Below are positions 7,497 through 63,399 of a stretch of 64,000 bases of DNA, piece by piece. Position numbers and translations under genes: made by a program. How positions within the stretch are numbered: the first letter of the stretch is position 1; each line of letters starts with the position of its first letter. Source of the DNA: Bifidobacterium ramosum (GTDB lineage Bacteria > Actinomycetota > Actinomycetes > Actinomycetales > Bifidobacteriaceae). The stretch lies in NCBI RefSeq assembly GCF_009299505.1, contig NZ_WBSM01000011.1:1-64000 (forward strand). The letters are read 5' to 3'. Under the pieces are notes generated by a model, which was not told where the DNA came from, did not search any database, and worked only from the letters and a program-made list of their open reading frames with translations.

Positions 7497-9914
<2,418 letters not shown>

Positions 9915-30848: not shown

Positions 30849-32950
30849 TGGGCGGCGCGCATGGCACCGACGGATGGCGCAGGTTGCATCCGGCCGCACT
30901 GATCGTTGGCATGATCGGTTCGTTTAAGTCCGCGATCGGCGTGTTGCTTGCCGTCGTCGGCTATCAGATCGTCCGCGACGGATGGTCGCCGTGGATGTTC
31001 GTCGGTGCCGTCGCGCTGATCCTGGCGCTCGTCGTCGTGCCGCCGGTCATCGAATGGCTGACCACACGTTACCGACTGGGTGCGGATTCGCTGGAGTTCC
31101 GTACGGGATTGTTCTCGCGCACTCGTCGCACGATCGGCTATGCGGCGATCCATGCGATCGACGGCACGGCACCGGTGTACTTCCAGCCGTTCGGCGTGGT
31201 GCGATTGACGATCACGGCCGCCGGATCGGATGCGAACATCACGCTCGACGCGGTGCCGGTCGCGCTGCAGCTCGAACTCGAATCGCTGCGGTCGGCCAGT
31301 CACGACGGGCATGCTGCCGATGATGGCCGTTGCGCTGCACACGCCGATGTTGCCGCGACCGGCACGGGCCTGAATCCCGGACCGGCTCTCGCCGCGGGTT
31401 CGCCGCTCAGCCCGTATCCTACGGCTGCACACGTAGTCACCGCCGCCGCACACGCCGCAAACGTTCCCAGCGTCGCAAACGTTACCAGCATCGCAAACGT
31501 ACGCATCCCGTCCTCCACAGGCGCATGCGGTACCATCGTGGACACATCGGTAGACGGTATGGCACCGTCCACGCCCGTGGCGACCTTATCAACCGGCGAT
31601 ACCGAACCGTCGTCCGCCACGAGATCGGCACCGCGGCCCGCAACGACCACGACTGCCGCTGCCGTCTCGCGCACCGTTTCCTCCATACCGCCGGCATCAG
31701 TAGCATCTGCACCATCCACGGCATCAGCCACCGCCGACCGCCCGGTGTTCCGCGCATCCGTGCGCGACATCCTGCTGTTCGCGATCACTGACCTCGGCTT
31801 TCTCGCCGCCGCGCTCGCGGTCTATGCAGCCTTCGACAAAGTCCGCGATTTCATCCCTCGCACGTGGATGCGCACCGCCACGCAGTCGGTCGATGCGATC
31901 GTCGCGCAAGGCGTGCTGTCGGTCGTACTGCTCGCACTGGCGTGCGTGATCGCGCTCATGATCGTGAGCATCGTCTCGGCGATGCTGCGGTTCTACGGGT
32001 TCGAAGTGTGGCGTCGCGGCGACGATCTCGTGGTGGTGCGGGGGCTGTTTACGCGCCACACGATGACGTTGCCGGTCCGCCGTATTCAGACGATCGTGAT
32101 ACGGCAGTCGTTGCTGCGGCGACCGTTCGGCTTGTGTTCGGTGAGTCTTGGCTTGAGCTCGTCAGTTGACAACGATGGCGATGATGCGAACGACGGCGGC
32201 AATGCGGCAAATATTCTGCCGGTCGTGGGGATGCGTCGCGTGACTGCATTGCTGCACGTGATGCTGCCGGAGTGGGATGTGCGCAACGATCTGCCGGTAC
32301 GGCGGACGGGGCACGGGTTGACACGGTATTACGTGACGCTGCCGGCGGCGCTCGGCGTGGCGACGACGGCGCTCGCGGCCACGGTCGTGATCGTGCAGGG
32401 TTGGTCGGGCAACTGGCTGCTGCGGATGATTCCGGCGGTGCCGTTCGTGATTTTCGCGTGGTGGACAGCGAGCCGTTGGCTGCGTTCGCAGGTCGACGGT
32501 TACACGTTGATGGATGACGCAGCGGATGGCGGAACACCGCGCAGGATGCAGGTATCGGATGCGACGAATGGCAAGGCAGACCGTGGGACACCGCGTAGGA
32601 TGAACGCGGCGGGGGCGACGGATAATGTGATCGACGCGACATCTGGCAGTGCTGACGCGGCGTCGGACATCACGATGAACACGGCAACGGACGCTGCGAA
32701 CGTTGGCACTGGCACACCGCTGCCTCACCGCATTATGGTGACCGGCGCAAGCGGGCTGACGCGGTTCACGATGGTCACCCGCCGCTCGCGGGTGCAGTCG
32801 GCTATTCGCAAAACAGCGGTATGGCGTGCTTCGCGCGGTATCGAAACGCTGCTGATGCCATTGTTCGTCACCAACGATACCGACGAACTGCGGTTCCAGT
32901 TCATCCGCCGGTCCGACGCCGACCGTCTCACCGCCTGGCTCGAGTCCTAG
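30848..32950 (+). CDS. Large multi-PH-domain (YdbT-like) membrane protein
   Basis: 700 residues. First unit (about 1-155): two helices then a bPH2 domain (YRLGADSLEFRTGLFSRTRRTIGYAAIHAIDG). A Thr/Ser/Ala/Val-rich linker of about 140 residues follows (about 160-300). Second unit: helices near 305-380 and GLFTRHTMTLPVRRIQTIVIRQSLLRRPFGL. Third unit: two helices, another Asp/Ala/Thr-rich insertion, then TRFTMVTRRSRVQSAIRKTAVWR. AAGGAGG lies 7 bp upstream, inside the preceding gene. The two insertions are unusual for this family. Confidence 0.87.
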   Translation: MGGAHGTDGWRRLHPAALIVGMIGSFKSAIGVLLAVVGYQIVRDGWSPWMFVGAVALILALVVVPPVIEWLTTRYRLGADSLEFRTGLFSRTRRTIGYAAIHAIDGTAPVYFQPFGVVRLTITAAGSDANITLDAVPVALQLELESLRSASHDGHAADDGRCAAHADVAATGTGLNPGPALAAGSPLSPYPTAAHVVTAAAHAANVPSVANVTSIANVRIPSSTGACGTIVDTSVDGMAPSTPVATLSTGDTEPSSATRSAPRPATTTTAAAVSRTVSSIPPASVASAPSTASATADRPVFRASVRDILLFAITDLGFLAAALAVYAAFDKVRDFIPRTWMRTATQSVDAIVAQGVLSVVLLALACVIALMIVSIVSAMLRFYGFEVWRRGDDLVVVRGLFTRHTMTLPVRRIQTIVIRQSLLRRPFGLCSVSLGLSSSVDNDGDDANDGGNAANILPVVGMRRVTALLHVMLPEWDVRNDLPVRRTGHGLTRYYVTLPAALGVATTALAATVVIVQGWSGNWLLRMIPAVPFVIFAWWTASRWLRSQVDGYTLMDDAADGGTPRRMQVSDATNGKADRGTPRRMNAAGATDNVIDATSGSADAASDITMNTATDAANVGTGTPLPHRIMVTGASGLTRFTMVTRRSRVQSAIRKTAVWRASRGIETLLMPLFVTNDTDELRFQFIRRSDADRLTAWLES

Positions 32951-49980: not shown

Positions 49981-52290
49981 TCAGCCATTCGCCACCACGG
50001 CGGTGACGAGCAACTCCTTACGCGGTCGGGTCATGGCCACATACAGAAGGTTGCGTTCCTGACGATAGAGCTGGTTCAGCTTGACCGAATCCCCTACGCA
50101 TTTGCGCACTTGGCTCGGCGGCGGGCACTGGTCCACATCCGGCACGACCACATAGTCGAACTCCAGACCCTTGGCACGATGCATGGTCGCCACGCGAATG
50201 CCTGACTTGCTTGTTACCTCCTTCGTTTTATTATCCAGCTTCAACGCCTTGTATGTGGACTTGCTGTTCAGCGCATCCACCCAGTCGTCTACATGCTGGT
50301 TGTCGCGCACGATCACGCAAATACCCTCCGGCTTAGCCATGGAATCCTGAGACAGTCGTTTATCGATCCAATCGGTCACGCAGCGAAATTGGGCGTTCCA
50401 GCTCTTGCAACGCAGAGCTTCAGGCCATTCACCATGCGTCAATGAAACACCATCGCCAAAGGACTCTTCCTGAGCTGAATCATCGAACACGCCAGTAAGT
50501 GAATAATCCAGCTCATCAGGCTTCTTTCGAGAGAAATCACTGACTTGTCTGCCGTTATTTTTGGCATCTTTCACTGCCTGCATTATGCCATCCACAGTAT
50601 TCGCACCACTGACTCGGCAAACAGTTTCGGCAACTGTTTTGATCTCGTTTGTCGTACGATAGTTGACTTTGAGACGGAAGCTGCGCCCGGCAATCGGGAT
50701 GCCACACTGTTTAAGTGATACTCGGTTGCCATACAATTGCTGATGGTTGTCGCCAGCGATGAAGATATCGTTGGCGTGACGGTCGACCATACTACGCAAC
50801 AGACGGTACGCGGACGCACCAAAATCCTGCCCTTCATCGACTACAACGAACGCGAATTTTTGGGTGGCCTGCGGCCCGTCAAGCAGTTTGGCCGCAACAT
50901 GCATTGCATAAGGTTGATCATATTCCTTATGCTCGTCCATCAGTTGCAGATAGCGTTCCGCAACCTCCCATACCGCTTCACGCTGCGCTTTAACCAAACG
51001 TTCGCCACGCCCGCGACGGGGAACCGCAAGATATTCATCCAGACAGGTGACATTGTTCGCAAGAATCACCTGCTCCCATTCTCGAATGAAGAAATCAACA
51101 GGCAGTTTCGACACTGACTCGTCTGAAGAGGCAGACTTGGCTTCCTCCCATAAATCATCGGTGTTGTACTGTACACGGAATTTTGTGTTGCGGTACACGA
51201 ACGGATACAGCCACTTATCGAGATTGATGACTCCGATATGAGCCAGCTCCTTCTCGGAGCACAACAGCTTCATATTGCTGAGAATGTCGTTGGCCAGATT
51301 GGCAGTGAACGTGGTCAACAGCACCTTACGATCACTACCTTGTTGAAGGAGGCTTTGAGCCAAGCGACGGGCACGGTGCATGGCTACCACGGTTTTACCG
51401 GTACCTGCACCTCCAGTAACCCGAGCAGGCCCGGAGTAGTTGCCATCGACAACGGAACGCTGTGTCGGATGTAGGAACACGCGCCACTGGGCCAATGGCG
51501 CGTTCATCAATCGTTCGAGGTCTTCATCATCGGTGAGGACCACGAACTGCTGCTGGGTGCCGTTCGATGTGAGCATCGTGCGTGCGTCTCGTTCGGCTTG
51601 ATTATCGCCCGCAGCGTCGATGAATTGCTGCGAGGATTCAGTCTGTGTGAAACCATATGAAGGACTCTGCTTGCGATCATCAGCAAGAAGACCAGCGATC
51701 TCTTCCTTCTTGTAGCCGTCAAGGGCAAAATCGACGTACATTTGGGCCTGTTCAGGCAACAGATGGGTCATTATCTTGGCTACGGGTTTGGAAGGTGCCC
51801 TGCGCAATACAGATACTCCGTTGGCGGGAACACCAAACTCGATCAAATCATCATCGCTGAACGGTGCGAGCAAATCAGTATGCGCACCAACGCTTGCTCC
51901 GTCAGCTAGCAGTTGTGCAAGCTGGGCAGAGCTGGGAGCATCTTCCAGTCGAACAGTGTTGGTGAGCATGTCGGTGGTGACCTGATGCCGACTTATCCAG
52001 TCATAGGCATCGTCGTGGCCTTCGTCAAGATGCAGGATCGTATAGATGTTGGTCCGGTCTTTACGAAAGATCACTGCACGGCAGCTTCGTGTGATGCGCA
52101 CAGAACGCATCCCCTTGTCCTTCATTCCGGTCGGCAACTCGACGTGCAGACCCAGCAGACTGGGATCTGTCCGGAGTTTACGGACAAACTCATAAAACGC
52201 CTTCTGCGTGCGTTTCTGGGATTTATTCAGTTCGGCGATCACATCAAGGAAAAGCACGATCGTCACTGGATTTTCATCTGCTTGTGGCAT
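49981..52290 (-). CDS. UvrD/Rep-type SF1 helicase with RelE-like N-terminal domain
   Basis: 769 residues. Residues about 10-100 look like a RelE/ParE-superfamily toxin fold (KAFYEFVRKLRTDPS, LHVELPTGMKDKGMRSVRIT, YTILHLDEGHDDAYDW). A linker region is followed by the helicase: Walker A GGAGTGKT (293-300), FAFVVVDEGQDFG, VNYRTTNEI, TMHRAKGLEFDYVVVPDV and QERNLLYVAMTRPRKELLV. The start has GGAGG 7 bp upstream. Such helicases recur in defence islands. It lies downstream of the restriction cluster on the same strand, separated by 150 bp with its own ribosome binding site. Confidence 0.85.
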   Translation of the reverse strand: MPQADENPVTIVLFLDVIAELNKSQKRTQKAFYEFVRKLRTDPSLLGLHVELPTGMKDKGMRSVRITRSCRAVIFRKDRTNIYTILHLDEGHDDAYDWISRHQVTTDMLTNTVRLEDAPSSAQLAQLLADGASVGAHTDLLAPFSDDDLIEFGVPANGVSVLRRAPSKPVAKIMTHLLPEQAQMYVDFALDGYKKEEIAGLLADDRKQSPSYGFTQTESSQQFIDAAGDNQAERDARTMLTSNGTQQQFVVLTDDEDLERLMNAPLAQWRVFLHPTQRSVVDGNYSGPARVTGGAGTGKTVVAMHRARRLAQSLLQQGSDRKVLLTTFTANLANDILSNMKLLCSEKELAHIGVINLDKWLYPFVYRNTKFRVQYNTDDLWEEAKSASSDESVSKLPVDFFIREWEQVILANNVTCLDEYLAVPRRGRGERLVKAQREAVWEVAERYLQLMDEHKEYDQPYAMHVAAKLLDGPQATQKFAFVVVDEGQDFGASAYRLLRSMVDRHANDIFIAGDNHQQLYGNRVSLKQCGIPIAGRSFRLKVNYRTTNEIKTVAETVCRVSGANTVDGIMQAVKDAKNNGRQVSDFSRKKPDELDYSLTGVFDDSAQEESFGDGVSLTHGEWPEALRCKSWNAQFRCVTDWIDKRLSQDSMAKPEGICVIVRDNQHVDDWVDALNSKSTYKALKLDNKTKEVTSKSGIRVATMHRAKGLEFDYVVVPDVDQCPPPSQVRKCVGDSVKLNQLYRQERNLLYVAMTRPRKELLVTAVVANG

Positions 52291-52439
52291 GAGACATCCT
52301 CCAAATCGGCTGTGACTGTCGAGGTTTCAGATTGTCGTTACCCTGTTCCATCACCGAAACCACAGCCAAGTCTACTCGTTTTCATCGCCTGACGGTGAAG
52401 TTAACGACACGCTTCACGTGGGAGCGCCTTTGCGGCCTG

Positions 52440-54077
52440 TCAACGTTTGATGGAATTCGGAACAATGCTGCTGGATGATGCGTGATTAAACATCTGATGT
52501 AGATATTCCAAGGTTTCGGATGTGTCGGGAAGGCTATTCAGATACATCCGTATTGCTTGTTCCGCATCCAATTCGAATAAGAGGATGTACCGGGGCATGC
52601 TTTTACCCATGTCTGTCATGAACTTCAATGACACTCGCCCTCGTTGAATCAGAAGGGGCCGTTCGTCTGTGTTTTTCCCGCTATCTAGTGTACGTTGGGA
52701 GGGCAGTATGAGCGCGTTACCTAGAATGGTGATGGGACCGTTTATTTTCTTGTTTTCCCTGAGCGGTAATTCTTGGCGGAGAGCCATCATGTAAAAGAAT
52801 TGCTTGATGAGATCGCCTATGCCGGGTTGCCCAGTTATTTGGCCTACCTTGCTGTTCGTGGCATCAAGCTTGTATTTGGGAATATAGTATTTGGCGTCCA
52901 GAATGTAGATGGAAGTCTGATCCTCTTGTTGGTCGGTGTTTATTACGTCCGGTATCAGGGAATGTGTCTCTGCAGCCGCCGTGTCTATGGTATTTTGCGT
53001 CGAGGCCTTTGTCTCGTCGGCATCCATATCGTTGACAGTATTTACAGCATTTGAATCGGAGTTCCACTCCAACTTCAGAAAGAATTCCCAATTGGGTTTT
53101 GGCAAAGTGATTCGATCATCATGATGGAAGATTTGCTTACAGATATCCTCCCATACACGATCGAATGATCCCGTGCCTTCGGCCAGGATACTGGTTCTGT
53201 TTGCAGGACTGTAATCCTCGAGGTAATTGAGCATGTTGTGTAGTAGGAGTTTCTTTCGCGTCTCGAACTGGATGTTAAGCTCTCGTCGCAAACGGAGTTC
53301 TAATATAGAAACTTCGCCGATAGCTTCCAGGCTTTCACCTGAGTTCTTGACCAGCGGCATGTGCAGAATCCCGTTCAGGCCGGTACTCTCGATGAAAGTG
53401 CTGATTTCGGTAAGTATCGCCAGCTGCACGCGTGCTATGAAATTGGACGATTCACGAGTACGACGTGAAGTAATCAGCTCCATGTATGCCGGTGAGCCGT
53501 TGTTCATTATGGGAGTGGTTTGATCGATAGTACGTGGCCACTCGATTTCGCCTTCGCCGTTGAGTTCTTGTACTCTCCGTGAATTCGTGTACGGTCCGTT
53601 TTGCGCATAATCATCCAGTAGGAATCGATAAAGACCAAGCTGGTTTTGTATGAGTGATTGTTGAGTGGCTACCGGACTGAAAGTAAGCTCATCCTGCTGA
53701 GTCGGATGAGAGACGAAATACCTACGTATGGCCGCAAGTATGTCGGAGAGAGACGCCGAAGCTAGCTCTGTGGGAATAGTATCCTCTCTAGGAAGATACG
53801 TGTAATATTTCGGCAAAATCGGGAACAGGAACCCGTTTGCTGCAATTACTCCCACATAATTGAATTGATATCCGCCGTCTACATTTTTCAGCAACCTTTT
53901 TTTACCTATTTTCATGCTGGCAAGCAGGTTGGTGATGGAGGCGACGTCATCATCGATACGAGTGTTGGACACATCGTCGGTGGATGACGCATAATGCGGA
54001 AAACTGCCCACGATCCAGGCTTCACGAATCTGCCGAGAGGTGTAGAGTGCTCCTTCGATAAAGAATCGACTAGTCAT
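52440..54077 (-). CDS. McrC/LlaJI-like restriction nuclease subunit
   Basis: 545 residues. The N-terminal region contains YVGVIAANGFLFPILPKYYTY, typical of LlaJI-type/McrC-related partners of McrB GTPases. A PD-(D/E)xK-like nuclease core is visible near residues 395-430 (SIYILDAKYYIPKY, after the preceding VIPDVI strand). It starts 6 bp after the McrB-like gene, so they form a two-gene unit. The sequence is clearly AT-richer than the core chromosome, which suggests transfer. Assignment to LlaJI rather than McrC is tentative. Confidence 0.68.
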   Translation of the reverse strand: MTSRFFIEGALYTSRQIREAWIVGSFPHYASSTDDVSNTRIDDDVASITNLLASMKIGKKRLLKNVDGGYQFNYVGVIAANGFLFPILPKYYTYLPREDTIPTELASASLSDILAAIRRYFVSHPTQQDELTFSPVATQQSLIQNQLGLYRFLLDDYAQNGPYTNSRRVQELNGEGEIEWPRTIDQTTPIMNNGSPAYMELITSRRTRESSNFIARVQLAILTEISTFIESTGLNGILHMPLVKNSGESLEAIGEVSILELRLRRELNIQFETRKKLLLHNMLNYLEDYSPANRTSILAEGTGSFDRVWEDICKQIFHHDDRITLPKPNWEFFLKLEWNSDSNAVNTVNDMDADETKASTQNTIDTAAAETHSLIPDVINTDQQEDQTSIYILDAKYYIPKYKLDATNSKVGQITGQPGIGDLIKQFFYMMALRQELPLRENKKINGPITILGNALILPSQRTLDSGKNTDERPLLIQRGRVSLKFMTDMGKSMPRYILLFELDAEQAIRMYLNSLPDTSETLEYLHQMFNHASSSSIVPNSIKR

Positions 54078-54083
54078 TACGGT

Positions 54084-55643
54084 CTATTCCCCAGTATCTT
54101 GTGCATCCTGATTGCCCGATACCTTTTTGGAGGTTGATGCGGGCTCCTCCGGCTGATCGGTACCCAGATCAGTGTTGATTCCTTTTTTGTCATCGTGGGG
54201 TTTATCGACTCGTTCCAATCCTTGAAAAATACCGTAATTGATAGTATCCCAAGCGTCGAAAAGTTTCTGCAGCGAAAGATCCTTCCCTTCCTCGGTAAAA
54301 GTGTCCGGACCGATCGCCTGCTTAATCGAGCTGATGTCGAATATTTCGGTGAGATGGTACTTTGCAGCATCTTCAAATAGGTACATGATGACCTTATTCT
54401 TCATGGCTTTGTCGAATGCTTGGCTACCGAAGGCAATGCCGTTATTCCCGAGAAAGAATGGCCCCATCTGCTTGTCTTCAGGAATGCCGGTTTTAAGCAA
54501 ATTATCATTAATGGTTTTGCGATATCTTGCCCCCCAGTCACGATCTTTGATAACCGGTTCTCCAGTCTTCCGATCTACCGCATTCACTCCATCATTGATG
54601 CCCACGTATTCAAAGTCCCAGCGGCGTTTGAATGCTGTATCCAAAGAGAATACGCCTTGATCGGCGGAATTCATCGTAGCGAGAATATACATGTTTGATG
54701 GAATAACGATTCGAGAGCAGTCGCCTATCCCTGTCAGTGATTGAAGGACTACACGTCCTTTATCGGTCAGGAGGTTAGGATTGAAATCCTTGGCTTCTGC
54801 GTTTTCTGCTGAGTGAGGATCATTCAGCGCGGTTTGGCGAAGATATTCACGGAGGTCCTCGCTTATGGTGATCGCATATTCGCTCTGTCCACCATCATTG
54901 CGATCAAGCAGCTGGAAGACATCACCAAACACGGAGGCTGCTTCGGAGCGATTCAATTCCTCGATGACCAGTGCATGTGGGTTGCTCGGGTCGTTGAGTG
55001 CATGGATCAGTACACGGGTGAACGGACCTGGACGGAATTGGTATTCTACCTGGCGAAGGATGGTTCCATTTGCGTCTTTCCTGGAAACAGTAACCGGTTT
55101 ATATGAGCCCACGAATTGCGAATGCAGGTAATCCGCATAAAAAGTTACCCGTTCGTACCTGCCAGTGAAATTTTCTTGCAGCACTTGATTCAATCGGTAG
55201 CTTTTGCCAGTACCGGGTGCACCGAAGTAGATGACGTTACGAGGAGAATCCCCTTCTCCGTTGAGCATACTGACACCCGTCTGGGAATTTCTGTCTAGAA
55301 ACTCTGCATATGCCTTCAAAGCCGAAAACAAGTTACTGTGATCATCGCGCCATCCGTCTGATCCCTTGATCAGATAATTACTGGATGATTTGATTTCATT
55401 TCGCATTGTTTGGATGACATTAGCATCAGAGATTGAGAATAGGGAAGTATGTACCGATAGAATCGGTACATCTGAAAAACTTCTCTTTGTCCCAGCAAAA
55501 CAGAAATTGGCAGGATCATAGTTGGATAGTCGAGTCGTATAGTTGTTAGCGGTAAGTTGTGACCCGTTAGAGGATCGGACAAACCATGCTCTAAATGCCT
55601 CTTTCCTTTCTGATTCTTCGCTTGCCGACGCTTCATTGTCCAT
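54084..55643 (-). CDS. McrB-like AAA+ GTPase subunit
   Basis: 519 residues. N-terminal domain of about 120 residues of unknown specificity, then the McrB-type AAA+ motor: Walker A GAPGTGKS (141-148), the TFYADYLHSQFVGSYKP segment, Walker B ALVIEELNRSEAASVFGDVFQLLDR, and the McrB signature ILATMNSADQGVFSLDTAFKRRWDF. With its nuclease partner it would translocate and cleave DNA. Whether the target is methylated (Type IV, McrBC) or a specific sequence (LlaJI) cannot be read from sequence. No cytosine methyltransferase gene is nearby, which favours the modification-dependent option. AGGGGA lies 8 bp upstream. Confidence 0.88.
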   Translation of the reverse strand: MDNEASASEESERKEAFRAWFVRSSNGSQLTANNYTTRLSNYDPANFCFAGTKRSFSDVPILSVHTSLFSISDANVIQTMRNEIKSSSNYLIKGSDGWRDDHSNLFSALKAYAEFLDRNSQTGVSMLNGEGDSPRNVIYFGAPGTGKSYRLNQVLQENFTGRYERVTFYADYLHSQFVGSYKPVTVSRKDANGTILRQVEYQFRPGPFTRVLIHALNDPSNPHALVIEELNRSEAASVFGDVFQLLDRNDGGQSEYAITISEDLREYLRQTALNDPHSAENAEAKDFNPNLLTDKGRVVLQSLTGIGDCSRIVIPSNMYILATMNSADQGVFSLDTAFKRRWDFEYVGINDGVNAVDRKTGEPVIKDRDWGARYRKTINDNLLKTGIPEDKQMGPFFLGNNGIAFGSQAFDKAMKNKVIMYLFEDAAKYHLTEIFDISSIKQAIGPDTFTEEGKDLSLQKLFDAWDTINYGIFQGLERVDKPHDDKKGINTDLGTDQPEEPASTSKKVSGNQDAQDTGE

Positions 55644-55751: not shown

Positions 55752-58700
55752 TCACTGCAGCGCATGAATCTTATCAAGTAGCGTCTGATAGGTAACAGCT
55801 TGTTCGTAACGAACGTCGCCGGCAAGTTGGAAATCATTGAAAAGCTTTTCGGCGCAGGCGATCTTGCCGCTTTCTATGTCGCGTAGCTCGAATTTGTCCA
55901 TGCTGCCCTTGGTTTCCGCGATGAAGAAGAGGTGTTTGATGCCGCTGCCTTCGCGGAAGGCGACCGCCCAGTCGGGCGCGTAGTTGCCGACCGGCGTGGG
56001 GATCTGGAACCCTCGAGGCAGCTTCGCGTAGACGGCGACTTCGTCCGCGGCGTCGAGATCCTTGGCGAACCGGCGTTCCACGCTTTCGGGCGCGGTGCCG
56101 TCCGGGAACACGTAGTCCTGCACGCATTTGCTGGCGCGGTATGCCACGGCTTCCTCGCGCGCGTTGCCACCCGCGGTGAAGATGCTGGCATCGTACTCGC
56201 CGGCGATCCGGTCGTAGCAGATGTGGTCCACGATCATGGTGGCCTTCTCCTGCACGATCAGTTTGGAGACCTTGGCGATGAACTGTTCGGGATTGTCCTT
56301 GAACATGCGGAACTTGTCGCCGCGAATGCCCTTCAGAATCGCGGCAGCGCACCGGCGCGTGATGGTCGCGCCACGGGCCACTTCTCCGAGCAGATCGTAG
56401 GTGACCCCACCGGACGCGTCCACGTTCAGTTCCTGATTGCCGCTGACGTGCTGGCGCATGAAATGATCACCCGCGGCAAGCTCGTTGCGGTTCGCCTCGC
56501 TCTTCTGCAGACCGCGCGTAAGCGTATAGGTCATCTTCGAGACGACGAGCTCGTCGTTGATGGCCTTCACGGCCTTCGCAATCAGCTCCTCATCCTTAAA
56601 ATCGACCGTGTACGCGTATTTGTGGTTGATGCGCTTCCACAGGGCCTGGAATTCCTTGCGCTGCCAGTTCTCGTTGAGCGGGTTGGAGAGGATCTTCTTC
56701 TTGAGCGCATTGCCGATGAGCATCGCGGTCACGCCTTCAAGCACGCTATCGAGCGAATACCGGATCGCGCCTATCTTGCTGGTCGGCACGACCTGCTCAA
56801 GATCCTTTGTCGTGGATTCGTCAAGCCGCTGTTCACGATACGTATCGGTCAGTTTGTCGTCCATGTCGATCAGATCGTGCTTGATAAGCACGTGGCAGAT
56901 CTTCCGCGCTTCCTCCGCGGTGAACGTGACCGGCTCCTCGCCCTCATGGTCGGGGCCGAGCTTGCCGGCCGGCACGGTGACGTGCGTGAAGAACGCATTG
57001 TCGATCTTGAGCGGGCGCTCGCGCAGCTCGCTTTGGATGTCCTTCTGCAGCGAGGCAGTGAACGTCGCATAGCTTTCGGACGCGATCACGGTCAGCAGGT
57101 TGACCGTCTGCACCTTGGCATCCCCCAGCAGGTTCATGTCCTGGCGCACGCCGTCCTTGTTCACGCACAGGCGCAGACCACGGCCGACCTCTTGGCGTTT
57201 GCCGGTTTCGGAATCGGAGTGCTTGAGCGTGCAGATCTGGAACACGTTCGGGTTGTCCCAACCCTCGCGCAATGCGGAATGGCTGAAGATGAACCTGGTT
57301 GGCTCGTCGAAGCTGAGCAGCCGCTCCTTGTTCTTGAGGATCAGATCGTAGGCGCTGATGTCGTCGCTTTCGTCCGAACCGCGCTTGAGCGTGGAATCGA
57401 TGCTGTGACCATGCTTGTCGATGCTGAAGTAGCCGTTGTGCGCGCGGTGTGCGACCGTGTGCCGCAGCCAGTCACGATACCGTTCGCCGTCCGCATCCAG
57501 CGAGAACCGGTTCAGGTATTCGTGCACGCACGAGTCGTATTCCTCCTCGAACATGCGCGCGTATTCGCCGGGCTGTTCCTCGTTGTTGTCGTCGTACCAC
57601 TTGTATTTGGCGACTTCGTCAATGAAGAACAGGCTCAGGCATTTGATGCCGCGCTCGAAGAGCATCGCTTCCTTGTCGAGGTGGCTTTTGATGGTTTCGC
57701 GGATCTGGATGCGGCGCATGTCCGCTTCCGCACCGTCGTTGAGGATCTCGCCGCGGTTCAGGACGGTGCCGTTGAGGAACCGCACATAGCCGACGCCGGT
57801 CGCGCTCAACTGATCGGGTACGATGCCGTCCGGCGCGATACGCCAATCGTCGCGGTACGCTTCCAGTTCGTTGGATGCCAGATACAGGTCGTCGTTCACG
57901 TCGAACGTGGAGGTCGTTTTGACGACCTTGCCGGTGGTGGGGCGCATCTGCTTGAACTCGATGCGGGCCTGTGGCGCGCGGTTCGGCCGCACGATGATGT
58001 CTTGCAGATACAGGTAGCCGTCGGTGCCGCGCATGTTGTTCAGTTCGATGCCCTTGACCTCGATGCGCTTGACGAGACGCTGGTTGTACGCGTCCAGCGC
58101 ATCGAGCGAGTACACGAGATCATGCTTGACTTTGTGCGTGGCCGAATAGTTGAGCACGAACAGCGGTTTGAACAGTCCGATGCCCTGCTGTGTGGCCTTG
58201 CCGCCCATTTTCTGCGGTTCATCCATGATGATGATCGGACGCATGGCGGCGATCACGTCGATCGGCCGGCGCGAACCGAAGTCGTCGCGCGGGGAGAAGA
58301 TGATGCGCGATTCCTTGCTGCGGCCGTTCTCCTTCATGGATGTGTTGAACGCCTGCATGTTGATGACCATGACCGAGATGTCGGCCGATTGCGCGAACCG
58401 GTCGAGTTCGGTCAGGTTCGAGGAATTGTAGACGAACCAATTGATGTGCTTGCCGTAGCCTTTGCCATCGTCCGCACCGGACGTATAGAAGTAGTCGTCG
58501 GTCAGCGACAGCGACTTGGCCACGCCCTCGCGGATCGCGATGGACGGCACCACGATGATAAATTTCGACCAGCCGTACCGGCGGTTCAGCTCGAAAATGG
58601 TTTTCGTGTACACGAACGTCTTGCCGGTGCCGGTCTCCATCTCCACATCCAATTCGACCGCACCGTTGCCGACGAACAGTTTCTTGGAGTCGGGAAGACC

Positions 58701-59006
58701 GTTGTTGCGCTGCACCTTGTGGATATTGTCGAGCAGCTGGTTGGAGGATAGGACCAGGTCACCGTTGCGGTAACCGGTGTCGTCCAGTTCGTCGTAAAGC
58801 GCGTCGGATAGCGTGCCCTGTTCGGTCGCGGCAGGATCGATGCCAAGATCGCCCTGTTTCGGTTCCGGTGCCAGGCTTGGCGACTGCCACTGACCGACGT
58901 CACGGATGTAGCTGACCCGTTCCTGCGGCGGCTGGCCGGAGAACACATCGCAGACGGCGTTCGCCGCGTCGGTCTGGTATTGGTAGCGTGAGAACTCGAA
59001 TTTCAT
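55752..59006 (-). CDS. res: Type III restriction enzyme, Res subunit
   Basis: 1084 residues, normal for Res (about 970-1100). SF2 helicase motifs: METGTGKT (Walker A, 123-130), IIIMDEPQKMGG, NYSATH, and FSHSALREGWDNPNVFQICTLK then RQEVGRGLRLCVN. The C-terminal endonuclease has PDWAVAF and FIAETKGS (PD...ExK). Res cuts DNA when two unmodified sites communicate and needs Mod for recognition. It starts 12 bp after mod1 with AGGTGG 7 bp upstream. If both mod genes are off, Res should be inert. Confidence 0.97.
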   Translation of the reverse strand: MKFEFSRYQYQTDAANAVCDVFSGQPPQERVSYIRDVGQWQSPSLAPEPKQGDLGIDPAATEQGTLSDALYDELDDTGYRNGDLVLSSNQLLDNIHKVQRNNGLPDSKKLFVGNGAVELDVEMETGTGKTFVYTKTIFELNRRYGWSKFIIVVPSIAIREGVAKSLSLTDDYFYTSGADDGKGYGKHINWFVYNSSNLTELDRFAQSADISVMVINMQAFNTSMKENGRSKESRIIFSPRDDFGSRRPIDVIAAMRPIIIMDEPQKMGGKATQQGIGLFKPLFVLNYSATHKVKHDLVYSLDALDAYNQRLVKRIEVKGIELNNMRGTDGYLYLQDIIVRPNRAPQARIEFKQMRPTTGKVVKTTSTFDVNDDLYLASNELEAYRDDWRIAPDGIVPDQLSATGVGYVRFLNGTVLNRGEILNDGAEADMRRIQIRETIKSHLDKEAMLFERGIKCLSLFFIDEVAKYKWYDDNNEEQPGEYARMFEEEYDSCVHEYLNRFSLDADGERYRDWLRHTVAHRAHNGYFSIDKHGHSIDSTLKRGSDESDDISAYDLILKNKERLLSFDEPTRFIFSHSALREGWDNPNVFQICTLKHSDSETGKRQEVGRGLRLCVNKDGVRQDMNLLGDAKVQTVNLLTVIASESYATFTASLQKDIQSELRERPLKIDNAFFTHVTVPAGKLGPDHEGEEPVTFTAEEARKICHVLIKHDLIDMDDKLTDTYREQRLDESTTKDLEQVVPTSKIGAIRYSLDSVLEGVTAMLIGNALKKKILSNPLNENWQRKEFQALWKRINHKYAYTVDFKDEELIAKAVKAINDELVVSKMTYTLTRGLQKSEANRNELAAGDHFMRQHVSGNQELNVDASGGVTYDLLGEVARGATITRRCAAAILKGIRGDKFRMFKDNPEQFIAKVSKLIVQEKATMIVDHICYDRIAGEYDASIFTAGGNAREEAVAYRASKCVQDYVFPDGTAPESVERRFAKDLDAADEVAVYAKLPRGFQIPTPVGNYAPDWAVAFREGSGIKHLFFIAETKGSMDKFELRDIESGKIACAEKLFNDFQLAGDVRYEQAVTYQTLLDKIHALQ

Positions 59007-59018
59007 GATTCATCCACC

Positions 59019-60915
59019 TCAGATGATGCGAATCTGCGTAGAGCCTTGCTGGGCGTTCGCGGTCTGCTTGAAGATCTCCGCGAAGTTCGTGACCGTCTTG
59101 CTGTTCTTCAGACCGGACTCAGCCGCGACCGCGTATGACGGCTTCGGGTCGAGCGCGGCCATGCCACGCAGCACGGATTCGGGGATTCCCGTGTCGAAGC
59201 ACGCGACCAACTGCCCGCCGTTCACGCTGTACACGGTATGGCCGGCGAACGCGGGACCGTCCAGCACTTCGATCGAGGAATCATACGGCAGCTGGAACGT
59301 CGGGAAGCATTCGAACAGTTTGTCGAGGCTTTCGCGATCAGATTTGGCCACATCGATCAGATCGTCAAGCGATCCCTGAACCGTTTCCTCCGGAGTGCGA
59401 CGAGCATCCTGATAGTTCGAGGAGTCCACACGCAATACACGGAAGCCGATATCCGGCACCTGCTTCAGATCACCCCCCCCCCAATGCCAATTGCTGATTC
59501 TCCACTTCAGCCTTGATCTTTTCTCCGGCGCGACGGATACGTTCTTCTCCGATCTCGCAGATCGTGTGATAACCGGCCTTCGCCGCCTCCGACTTCTCAT
59601 CACACACTTCAGGCAACTGCACCATAATGAACTTACGATGGCCGCCATCCTCAGCATTCAACTGCATGACAGCGTGAGCCGTCGTGGCAGAGCCAGAGAA
59701 GAAATCAAGAATAATTGAATCTTTATCAAGATAAGAAATCAGTTGAAGCATGCGGTAAATCAGAGAGACTGGTTTAGGCGCATCAAAAGTTTTCCCTCCC
59801 ATTAATGTTTTCAAATTGGCAGTAGCCGTCGAAGTTAAGCCAGCATCATCCCACCATGTCGTAGCCGTTTTACGAGATTCCTTCGCCTGAGCAAGGTAAT
59901 ACTTCTGAGCGAGACTGTCTCCTCGTTTAACAATTAATCCGTTCTGATATTTTTCCTGCATTGTTTGCTTGGAAAAACGCCAATATCCTTCAACTCCGAG
60001 GAATGAGTAGTAAGGATTACCTTTCCTAGCTCCGCCAGGACCATCTACAGGAACTAGCTTATACGGTCCGCGATTATCTTGATCGTCATTATCAAAGCCG
60101 GTTAAATCCGGATCTAGCCCAATTTTAGATTTTGTTTTTTCAACAAGATCAACATTCTTAACATAAAACAAAATAAGATTATGGTTTGGTGAAATAACCT
60201 TATCATTAGAAATGGATGCACGAGATTTATGACAAATAATCGCAACGCGATTCTTTTCACCATATATTTCATCCATGATTTTTGTTGCATTAGTTATTTC
60301 ATTATCATCAAGACTGACAAAAATCGCACCATCAGAACTTAACAGGTCACGGGCAAGCAACAGCCTCGGATACATCATGCTGCACCAGTCGGAATGAAAC
60401 CGACCGTTGGACTCAGGATTGGCTACAAGCTGACCTTCTTCCGTATGCTCGCCGTTATTGGGTTTGTAGTCATTATCCTTCTGAGCAAAATGATCATGGT
60501 ACACAAAATCATGTCCGGTGTTGTACGGAGGATCGATGTAGATCATCTTGATCTTACCGGCGTAGGTTTCACGCAGAATCTTCAACGCATCGAGGTTGTC
60601 ACCTTCGATGTAGAGGTTCTGGGTGTCATCCCAGTTCTTGCTACGCTCCTTGACCGGACGCAGGGTCTTGGCGATCGGGCGGCGCGCCTCTTCCTTGGCG
60701 GCGCGCTTGCCGGGCCACGTGAACTGGTAGCGTTCGCGCATGCCTTCGGCCACGTCACCGAGCTGGTCGCGCAACGCGTCGAAATCGATCGCACACTTGA
60801 TCTCGCCGGTTTCCTTGTCTTGCACTTCGGTTCCCACGTTCGGGAACAGGGCAAGAATCTTCTCCACGTTCTCCTGCGTCAGATCAGGCGTCACTGCCTC
60901 AATGCGCTCTGGCAT
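59019..60915 (-). CDS. mod: Type III DNA methyltransferase Mod1, out of frame at a G10 tract
   Basis: From ATG 60915 (AGGAGG 5 bp upstream) the frame encodes the beta-class N6-adenine methyltransferase order: IDPPYNTG (128-131 DPPY) then a variable target-recognition region and ILDFFSGSA (405-410, SAM site). At residue 481 the frame hits a TGA made by ten G (59473-59482). With nine G it reads through QLALGGGDLKQVPDIGFRVL to a 631-residue protein whose C-terminus matches Mod2. The central region is AT-rich. Recognised sequence unknown. In this sequence the gene is off or gives a truncated protein that lacks the C-terminal Res-contact part. Confidence 0.93.
59473..59482 (-). repeat. Poly-G(10) phase-variation tract in mod1
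   Basis: Ten G on the coding strand; nine (or any length divisible by three) restores the full frame. The paralogue has no tract at the equivalent position. Confidence 0.93.
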
Positions 60916-61097
60916 TGCTTCCTCCTTGTCGGCTGGCTTACCGGCCCACGCCGGCAAGCCCTCACTTGATGGCTCACATGCAGCGTCAGCCTCGGCATCC
61001 CCTGCACTCTGTATTACCGGACAATGCACGTTGTCTCAATCCAAAATCTTACCGTCGCCGCTCATCCCCTATCAGGAGTGACACCGCCGAGCCGGTT
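60916..61097 (-). other. Duplicated upstream remnant between mod2 and mod1
   Basis: Between the mod2 stop and the mod1 start lie decayed fragments of the two small ORFs that precede mod2: GACGGTAARAT (compare the DGKIIGWDKR codons of 63190-63399) and GTGCAGGGGAYGCCGARGCTG (compare SVQGTPKLTLHV of 63066-63224), now with stops and frame changes. This shows that mod was duplicated together with its upstream small ORFs. Confidence 0.7.
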
Positions 61098-63039
61098 TTA
61101 GATAATGCGAATCTGCGTTGAACCTTGCTGGGCGTTCGCCGTCTGCTTGAAGATCTCCGCGAAGTTCGTCACCGTCTTGCTGCTCTTCAAACCGGACTCG
61201 GCCGCGACCGCATACGACGGCTTCGGATTGAGCGCGGCCATGCCATGCAACACCGACTCCGGAATCTCCGCATCGAAACACGCGACCAACTGACCGCCGT
61301 TCACGCTGTACACCGTGTGACCGGCAAATGCTGGAGCGTCCAGCACTTCGATCGAGGAATCATACGGCAACTGGAACGTCGGGAAGCACTCGAACAGCTT
61401 ATCCAAGCTCTCACGATCCGACTTCGCCACATCGATCAGATCATCCAACGAGCCCTGAGTCATCTCCTCCGGAGTACGGCGAACATCCTCATAGTTCGAT
61501 GAATCCACACGCAGCACGCGGAACCCGATATCCGGCACCCGCTTCGGCTCCGCGCCCAACTCAAGCTGTCCATTCGCCCCCTCAACCTCAGCCTTGATCT
61601 TCTCGCCAGCCCGCCGAATACGCTCCTCACCAATCTCACAGAGGTCGCCGAATGTAGTCTGTACGCTACCGGTCAGTTCCACGCCAGAGGGTATCTGCAC
61701 AAGAATGTACTTCCTATGTCCATCATCAGTCGCATTCTTCTGCATCACCGCATCTGCGAGACTTGCCGAGCCGGAGAAGAAGTCCAGTACGACAGAATCT
61801 GGGTCGGAAGCAACATCCAGAATGCGTCGCATAAGTCGCGTCGGTTTCGGAGTATCAAAAGGCACGCCTTCCGGGAACAGTGCCTTCAGTTCCTTCTTGC
61901 CTTCCTGACTGTGGCCGACTTCTTCATACGGCCAGATTGTCTGGCACGCAACGCCTTGCTTGACTTCGGACAGAAAACGTTTGATGGCGGGAACATTGTT
62001 CCCATCTTCTCCGAACCAGACGCGGTTATCGGCAATTAGTCTCCCCATAGCATCCTGCGTATAGCGCCAACACATTCCACTCGGTAAATGATGTTGCTTT
62101 CCATTTGGGGCAGTTAAAACATAGAACTGACTTTTCGTTCCGTGTCCTGCCTGAGCATATGAATCACCCGCTTTCCAAGGCCCTCTTGGATCATTGTCGC
62201 GATTCGTATACCGAGCATTCATTTCCGCACTGCGCTCGAGCAGATTCGGCCGCCATGCTTCTTTGTTCTTTGCGTACACGAGGATGAAATCATGGCTTTC
62301 AGAGAACCATTGCACGGCATTCTGCGGGCTATAGCGCTTTTGCCAGATAATCGTGTCGACAAAATTCTGCGCGCCGAAAATCTCATCACAGATATTGCGT
62401 AGATTGCGATTCTCATTGTCGTCGATGCTGATAAAGATGGCGCCATCGTCAGCAAGCAAATCATACGCGACCCGCAACCGCGGATAGATCATGCTACACC
62501 AGTCGGAATGAAAACGACCGTTGGCTTCTAGATTAGCCACCAATTGTTCGCCGAATTCCCCGTGCTCTCCATCTTTTGACGCGAAATCATCCTTGTTGAC
62601 AGAGAAGTCATCGTGGTACACAAAATCATGTCCGGTGTTGTACGGCGGATCGATGTAAATCATCTTGATCTTGCCCGCATAGGTCTCGCGCAAAATCTTC
62701 AACGCGTCAAGGTTGTCGCCCTCGATATAGAGGTTGTGTGTCTCGTCCCAGTTCTTGCTGCGCTCCTTCACCGGGCGCAAAGTCTTGGCGATCGACCGAC
62801 GCGCCTCCTCCTTGGCCGCACGCTTACCCGGCCACGTGAACTGGTAGCGTTCACGCATCCCCTCGGCCACATCGCCGAGCTGCTCGCGCAACGCGTCGAA
62901 GTCCACCACACGCCTGATCTCACCGGTTTCCGGGTCCCGCACCTCAGTACCGACGTTCGGAAACATGGCAAGAATCTTCTCCACATTCTCCCGCGTCAGA
63001 TCAGGTGTAACCGAGTCAACAGCCCTTAGGGGGGGGCAT
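61098..63039 (-). CDS. mod: Type III DNA methyltransferase Mod2, out of frame at a C8 tract after the start codon
   Basis: ATG at 63039 has GAAGGAG 9 bp upstream and is followed at once by eight C, giving a stop after seven codons. With seven C it reads MPPLRAVDSVTPDLTRENVEK and onward to a 646-residue protein parallel to Mod1. Motifs: IDPPYNTGHDF and VVLDFFSGSASLADAV. N- and C-terminal regions are nearly identical to Mod1 in protein sequence but differ at many synonymous positions; the target-recognition region differs strongly, so specificity should differ. A GTG at 62984 could start a shortened protein but has no ribosome binding site. Confidence 0.93.
63029..63036 (-). repeat. Poly-C(8) phase-variation tract at the start of mod2
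   Basis: Eight C on the coding strand between the start codon and TAAGG. Seven or ten would put mod2 in frame. Mod1 has no tract at its start. Confidence 0.9.
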
Positions 63040-63065
63040 ATGTTTCTGCTCCTTCATCGCAACCT

Positions 63066-63224
63066 TCAGTTATCAAAAGCCTTGTTCACATGCAAGGTCA
63101 GCTTCGGCGTCCCCTGCACAGAACCACTACCGGACAACCTGTCATCACCCGACACAGCAAAAACATTCCCAAACGACAGATCGTGGAGTTTAAGCGGCAA
63201 CATTGTCGCTCTCATTGCGTTCAT
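63066..63224 (-). CDS. 52-residue small protein upstream of mod2
   Basis: Starts MNAMRATMLPLKLHDLSFGN with GGAGG 9 bp upstream, ends TPKLTLHVNKAFDN 27 bp before the mod2 start. It overlaps the preceding small ORF by 35 bp in another frame, so translational coupling is likely. A decayed copy lies upstream of mod1. Function unknown. Confidence 0.5.
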   Translation of the reverse strand: MNAMRATMLPLKLHDLSFGNVFAVSGDDRLSGSGSVQGTPKLTLHVNKAFDN

Positions 63225-63399
63225 TGCCTCGCACCTCCACGATCTGATCGTTCTCACCAATCTCGCCAAGTACAATGCGCTTGTCCCACCCTATGATTTT
63301 ACCGTCATCACTCACACCGATTGGGAGCGACACATCCAAGCCAAAGACTTCATTACCCATGATACGGCGAATAGCAGCAGCTACAGCGTCTAAAGACAC
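63190..63399 (-). CDS. 69-residue small protein
   Basis: GTG start at 63399 (MSLDAVAAAIRRIMGNEVFG), then LPIGVSDDGKIIGWDKRIVLGEI and an acidic end. A decayed copy of its middle lies upstream of mod1, and codon use is protein-like. No family recognised. It could be the first gene of the restriction cluster. Confidence 0.5.
   Translation of the reverse strand: MSLDAVAAAIRRIMGNEVFGLDVSLPIGVSDDGKIIGWDKRIVLGEIGENDQIVEVRGNERNESDNVAA

Follow-up and report, generated by a model that had tools for sequence, protein, structure and literature searches.

The window analysed here is a 64,000-nucleotide stretch of the Bifidobacterium ramosum genome (contig 3, bases 1-64000; genome of 3.03 Mb in 25 contigs), and it carries the genes of a Type III restriction-modification system on its minus strand, in the order mod2, mod1, and res. 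The two mod genes encode paralogous Type III methyltransferases (Mod) and occupy positions 61098..63039 (mod2, ATG at 63039-63037) and 59019..60915 (mod1, ATG at 60915-60913, last stop codon at 59021-59019). As assembled, mod1 is interrupted and mod2 is out of frame. The restriction gene res (55752..59006) is intact and begins 12 nt past the stop codon of mod1. Its product matches PADLOC REase_III (3.8e-270), PF19778, and PF04851, and it presents helicase motifs (GTGKT, DEPQ) and a PD-(D/E)XK motif (PDWA...ETKG, of the form PD...ETK). Both Mods are beta-class amino-methyltransferases in which DPPY precedes an FxGxG-type motif (FSGSA): these motifs lie at residues 128 and 406 of Mod1 and at residues 112 and 403 of the 628-residue frame of mod2. 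Both match PF01555 (N6_N4_Mtase), the mod1 frame up to the homopolymer described below with a value of 5.6e-31, and that same frame matches PADLOC MTase_III with 1.8e-168. The fold of a solved Type III Mod was recovered across most of the length. The middle regions of Mod1 and Mod2, where recognition resides, have diverged, the ends are similar, and the catalytic motifs are intact in both. In a local alignment for which no significance was computed, the spacer between the two genes (60916..61097, minus strand) shows similarity to a portion of the sequence preceding mod2 (63192-63342), and the mods therefore look like a tandem duplication.

The coding strand of mod1 contains a run of ten G at 59473..59482 (C10 on the plus strand), at codons 478-481, and alignment to the mod2 model places it between the methyltransferase core and the C-terminal domain. 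The run is directly followed by a TGA codon (59470..59472), reading TTG GGG GGG GGG TGA, so that the assembled product ends with LALGGG after 481 residues. A Shine-Dalgarno-like AAGGAGG lies upstream of the gene (60921..60927). We substituted tract lengths from 6 to 13 in turn and translated the resulting open reading frame (ORF). Lengths 6, 9, and 12 opened the frame and yielded 630, 631, and 632 residues, respectively, and lengths 7, 8, 10, 11, and 13 gave only 480-483 residues. A first-pass annotation of this DNA had placed the gene, its strand, its frame, and the ten G followed by TGA correctly, and its prediction that the removal of one G restores a Mod of 631 residues agrees with our translation. 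It had further stated that the C-terminus matches the paralogue exactly in register. The register holds but the identity is not exact: among the 151 codons compared between mod1, 3' of the tract, and mod2, 138 specify the same amino acid. The changes are predominantly silent, since 46 of the 59 changed codons are synonymous and the three codon positions carry 10, 10, and 44 changes, respectively. Protein-level constraint therefore acted on the stretch beyond the tract for most of its history, and a long-dead reading frame would not present this pattern.

The position of the tract within the protein defines what is lost. In mod2 numbering, the tract falls at about residues 476-479, in a linker devoid of predicted helices or strands between the last helix of the core (448-472) and the C-terminal domain (from 488). 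What the out-of-frame Mod1 of 481 residues lacks is thus the C-terminal domain alone; DPPY, FSGSA, and the recognition region remain, and the methyltransferase core would be complete.

The second methyltransferase gene presents a tract of its own. The mechanical ORF list begins mod2 at a GTG (62984), past a run of eight C (63029..63036; G8 on the plus strand) that directly follows the ATG, which is itself preceded by a Shine-Dalgarno-like AAGGAG located 9 nt before it (63049..63054). Read from this ATG, the assembled gene encodes a product of 7 residues. With 7, 10, or 13 C, mod2 encodes proteins of 646, 647, and 648 residues, whose N-terminus aligns with those of relatives. The paralogue that the first-pass annotation had used as an intact reference is therefore itself out of frame, and the unit to be explained is the pair rather than mod1 alone. 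The two out-of-frame products differ: 7 residues for mod2 versus the core and recognition region without the C-terminal domain for mod1.

Related mod genes of two other species of the genus present a tract at the mod2 position. The mod of Bifidobacterium rousetti carries C10 after ATGAATCACGCCA and encodes 11 residues as assembled; lengths 6, 9, and 12 would open it. The mod of B. pluvialisilvae carries C9 after ATGACTGAAACACAAG and is open, with 656 residues. Measured against a shared ACACC(T/G)GA, the tract ends 20 bases upstream in mod2 of the window and in both of these genes. Identity to Mod2 is 60 and 62% for the two proteins, and the sequence flanking the tract has diverged. Across the three species, the 5' tract is thus found as C8 out of frame, C10 out of frame, and C9 in frame. 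A position that is kept while length and state vary gives this run the appearance of a contingency tract, and we regard the conserved 5' position with changing length as the best comparative evidence pointing to slipped-strand phase variation.

A broader sample was obtained from public genomes, in which we analyzed 80 loci with mod relatives (80 retained out of the 473 relatives reported). Nine long G/C runs were found in the mod region (nine loci, one run each) versus four in the flanks, which are 3.7-fold longer than the mod region, an excess with P = 0.0003. Seven of the nine runs lie near the mod start; judged by eye, four of these are in frame (L065, L105, L109, and L070) and three out of frame (L101, L125, and L128), the remaining two loci (L121 and L126) standing outside the frame count. 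The three out-of-frame loci belong to Collinsella phocaeensis and to metagenome-assembled genomes (MAGs) of Treponema and Duncaniella, and their G runs measure 8 to 10.

The occurrence of such runs by chance was estimated with Markov models of order 2 to 5. Runs of at least 10 G or C are expected 0.003-0.03 times in the 64-kb window and one was observed. Runs of at least 8 are expected 0.13-0.5 times; since 8-base runs alone are unsurprising in the window, the case for the mod2 tract rests on its position and its relatives. The whole genome contains 43 G/C runs of at least 8 (lengths of eight, nine, ten, eleven, and twelve occur 22, 14, 5, 1, and 1 times, respectively, and the run of eleven lies at a contig end), 7 of them of at least 10, so that runs of 10 or more are rare in the genome, yet not unique to mod1. 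Two of the 43 lie inside the 3.8 kb of both mods, where 0.055 are expected (P about 0.0014, in a post hoc test).

These results suggest a single Type III restriction-modification system made up of mod2, mod1, and res, in which the two Mods are alternative specificity subunits and each is governed by its own slipped-strand switch. We put the probability of this reading at roughly 0.8. In both mods, the length of a simple sequence repeat (SSR) inside the ORF decides between a full-length and a truncated product, as in SSR phase-variable mod genes. In- and out-of-frame lengths among relatives were found for the mod2-type 5' tract, and no such relative was found for mod1. Replication slippage at either tract would shift its length by one base, and hence the state of that Mod, in a share of the cells. 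A Mod that is switched on would join the common Res, two Mods with one Res, and would methylate its own asymmetric site, and the complex would restrict foreign DNA devoid of the mark. With both Mods off, Res would be left without a recognition subunit and the system would be silent. Type III restriction enzymes are reported to comprise one Res and two Mods (PMC4005696), and Mod alone is described as generally sufficient for methylation (PMC8259958). Taken together, this predicts four states: silent, Mod1 specificity, Mod2 specificity, or both. We infer slippage, switching, mark, restriction, and regulon at these mods from the sequence. The likeliest benefit would be bet-hedging against phages and incoming DNA, and a putative control of a gene set by the Mods (a phasevarion) is possible.

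Several observations weigh against this reading. No second tract length was found within the species for mod1 or for mod2, and another database record of mod1, on a second and longer contig, presents the same 481 residues in the same state. Among the best 120 of 7996 protein matches to Mod1, no in-frame strain was listed: the near-identical matches are of the 481-residue form only and the next are at most 71% identical. We also found no tract at the mod1 position in any relative. The mod of B. jacchi (66%) has no tract. A search of 112 Bifidobacterium genomes gave a match in 21 (the window's own genome counted), and in the 33 stretches retrieved from it, runs of at least 8 G or C were detected in B. 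rousetti only, besides the window's genome, which indicates that the 5' tract is present in some lineages and not in all. A tract as short as the C8 of mod2 would not be expected to slip fast. An internal GTG or ATG in mod2 could moreover yield a protein some 18-24 residues shorter when the gene is out of frame, and one database protein (P0121, 622 residues) begins at such an internal ATG; this entry represents two member sequences, the second of which could have a different start. A second place covering DPPY was found in 5 of the 80 public loci, so that tandem mods as such are not unique. Finally, among 17 loci selected from the examined G/C-run loci outside the mods, four carry a recurrent ACATACAG-type sequence within about 120 bases of the run. 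This sequence looks like an intergenic repeat; not every long G run in this genome is thus a switch, and a run does not by itself establish one. A further point is that the truncated Mod1 retains the catalytic motifs.

The first-pass annotation had described mod1 as a phase-variable gene that is off. That full-length Mod1 is off as assembled is certain from the reading frame, and a frame set by the tract accords with the mod2-like tracts of two other species, which lie at the 5' position and not at the mod1 position; the switch of the partner gene had been missed. Whether the word off applies to all Mod1 activity is doubtful, because the product of 481 residues retains the catalytic motifs and the recognition region. 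It is possible that the mod1 tract switches coupling rather than methylation, by alternating between a protein of 481 residues and one of 631 residues able to dimerise or to hold Res. Unlike the 5' tract of mod2, the mod1 tract lies in a linker between the methyltransferase core and the C-terminal domain, and a G-tract truncation that changes specificity is described for the Type I HsdS subunit of NgoAV (PMC7394358). However, known Type III Mods are reported to be tight dimers (PMC4005696) and a truncated Mod may be unstable. We consider this alternative unlikely. We would give similarly little credence to the combination in which the two tracts act as two dials with four states and the mod1 tract, instead of turning the gene off and on, toggles between a methyltransferase without its C-terminal domain and a form competent for restriction.

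Alternatively, both frameshifts could be assembly errors at homopolymers, in which case both mods would truly be open and constitutive. Homopolymers are where sequencing goes wrong, and the tract lengths of the B. breve database record are reported to differ from those obtained by deep sequencing (PMC9187656). The second record of Mod1 with the same 481 residues speaks against such an error, however, and the tracts are real whatever their exact length, as the 5' tract recurs at the same position in two other species. Even at true lengths of nine and seven, the mods would be contingency loci in their on state. We judge this explanation improbable.

Ordinary decay, with one or both mods being pseudogenes short of a base and without reversion, agrees less well with the evidence than switching does, and although it is possible, we hold it to be quite improbable. 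Both mods are out of frame as assembled, and plain frameshifts occur in the family: in genome G020, a mod relative has been broken by the loss of one base, away from any long tract. In contrast, the lesion in each mod of the window falls exactly at a homopolymer, each gene runs without a further stop to its end at the open lengths, the changed codons are mostly synonymous, and a species with an in-frame length exists. We had considered the G020 frameshift (L146, at about 4606) as a second switch and rejected it, because one base was lost from a CCC relative to the near-identical G038 and no long tract is present; judged by this comparison, the break is an ordinary frameshift or an error. Least probable of all is that slippage during transcription or translation yields full-length Mod1 or Mod2 from the assembled lengths and that the tract tunes the level of protein without a switch: polymerase and ribosome can slip on long homopolymers, but mod2 would require a slip at codons 2-4 and the in-frame length of B. 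pluvialisilvae favors a genetic change in length.

A switchable Type III Mod has clear parallels in other bacteria, as the first-pass annotation had pointed out for mod genes in general. SSRs are reported in 17.4% of Type III mod genes (PMC7394358), and modH of Helicobacter pylori is described with a poly-G tract of 9-15 (PMC3230613). The phasevarions of modA, modB, modD, modH, modM, and modS share with the present locus a Type III Mod beside res, a simple repeat in the ORF, and the occurrence of in- and out-of-frame lengths among relatives. They differ in that two tandem mods share one res here, with a poly-C tract at the start of one and a poly-G tract before the C-terminal domain of the other; their hosts are pathogens, whereas the host here is a bifidobacterium in which a regulon is only putative. 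The sortase-pilus switches of B. breve (PMC9187656) also involve G tracts of about 9-12 in bifidobacterial ORFs, with a change in length joining two ORFs. Their target is a pilin and slippage in the pilus genes was measured, whereas the target here is a methyltransferase whose slippage we infer. A Bacillota MAG (L070), one of the five public loci with a second DPPY place, likewise presents a tandem of mods ahead of a res-like frame, and both mods carry G8 at the same near-start position (4117 and 6418). In that locus, both mods are open as assembled and the res-like frame is cut at the locus end. Its G8 runs may be incidental to a Gly-Gly stretch, and the locus weakens the uniqueness of the tandem pair described here.

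Among the papers listed by our literature search, which covered titles and the openings of abstracts, none describes a phase-variable methyltransferase of bifidobacteria, and "two mod genes" was absent as a phrase from the matches listed. Within this scope, the earlier statement that none is described in the genus stands, next to the G-tract slippage measured in the pilus genes of B. breve (PMC9187656). As far as this search reaches, two points are new: that such genes occur in bifidobacteria, and that mods arranged in tandem carry two different tracts. A claim of first description would nevertheless be weak, as a REBASE survey of Type III repeats (PMC5909438) may list Bifidobacterium. The novelty lies in two mods that have unlike tracts and share a single Res; a switch of mod1 alone would be a further case of a known phenomenon.

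With working switches, members of one bifidobacterial clone would carry different DNA marks and reject different phages and plasmids. This would bear on why bifidobacteria are poorly transformable and on how their strains resist phages. It would also bear on the question of whether phase variation at multiple loci is typical of pathogens or only seems so because of what has been sequenced (PMC11868660). The mod pair would also offer a clean test, with the same backbone, the same Res, two specificities, and two switches.

The base that the two Mods would methylate is N6-adenine by default, by kinship with EcoP15I Mod/Res (28% identity). The EcoP15I system has a single mod and, to our knowledge, is not phase-variable. 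N6-adenine is not to be assumed for Mod1 and Mod2, however, because Type III Mods that make N4-methylcytosine are reported to have the same DPPY motif (PMC8259958). The same paper describes Type III systems in which an additional helicase gene precedes mod, some of which make N4-methylcytosine, and Eco86II and BspHIV resemble our locus in having a helicase gene upstream of the mods (of SNF2 type here). We considered Eco86II as close kin that might decide between the two bases and ruled it out. Its Mod measures 1040 residues versus 631 and, in the catalytic part, is only 25% identical to Mod2 (97 of 390 aligned positions), its helicase aligns with the SNF2 helicase in the motor motifs only, and a DUF4391 gene is present here.

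This DUF4391 gene (L145, 1656-2396) and the large SNF2-type helicase gene (L145, 2353-6729) lie upstream of the mods on the same strand, beyond the window (L145 1656-6729 corresponds to contig 3, 65656-70729). The helicase has an IrrE-like N-terminal part according to Pfam, and its best PADLOC match is a candidate model named HKD+Snf2. A large ORF whose C-terminus is similar to the SNF2 helicase is also found upstream of mod in B. jacchi, B. rousetti, B. pluvialisilvae, and G087; the family of this ORF was checked by Pfam in the window's genome only.

Elsewhere in the genome, long runs occur on contig 3 at base 95902 (G10), on contig 7 at base 9205 (G10), and on contig 10 at base 31840 (12 bases). 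Some of the genome's runs adjoin the recurrent short repeat and others lie near ORFs, and these could represent a wider set of slippage loci. The genome also possesses a third, distant Type III mod (L148, 4800-6764, contig 9; 44 and 49% in two pieces), which has no G/C run of at least 7 in the 12 kb around it; a mod of G016 has identical match scores. Within the window, res is followed on the same strand by a McrB-like AAA gene and an LlaJI-type restriction gene (PF09563), and then by a UvrD-type helicase gene at 49981-52290, the three spanning 49981-55643. This stretch is thus rich in defence genes.
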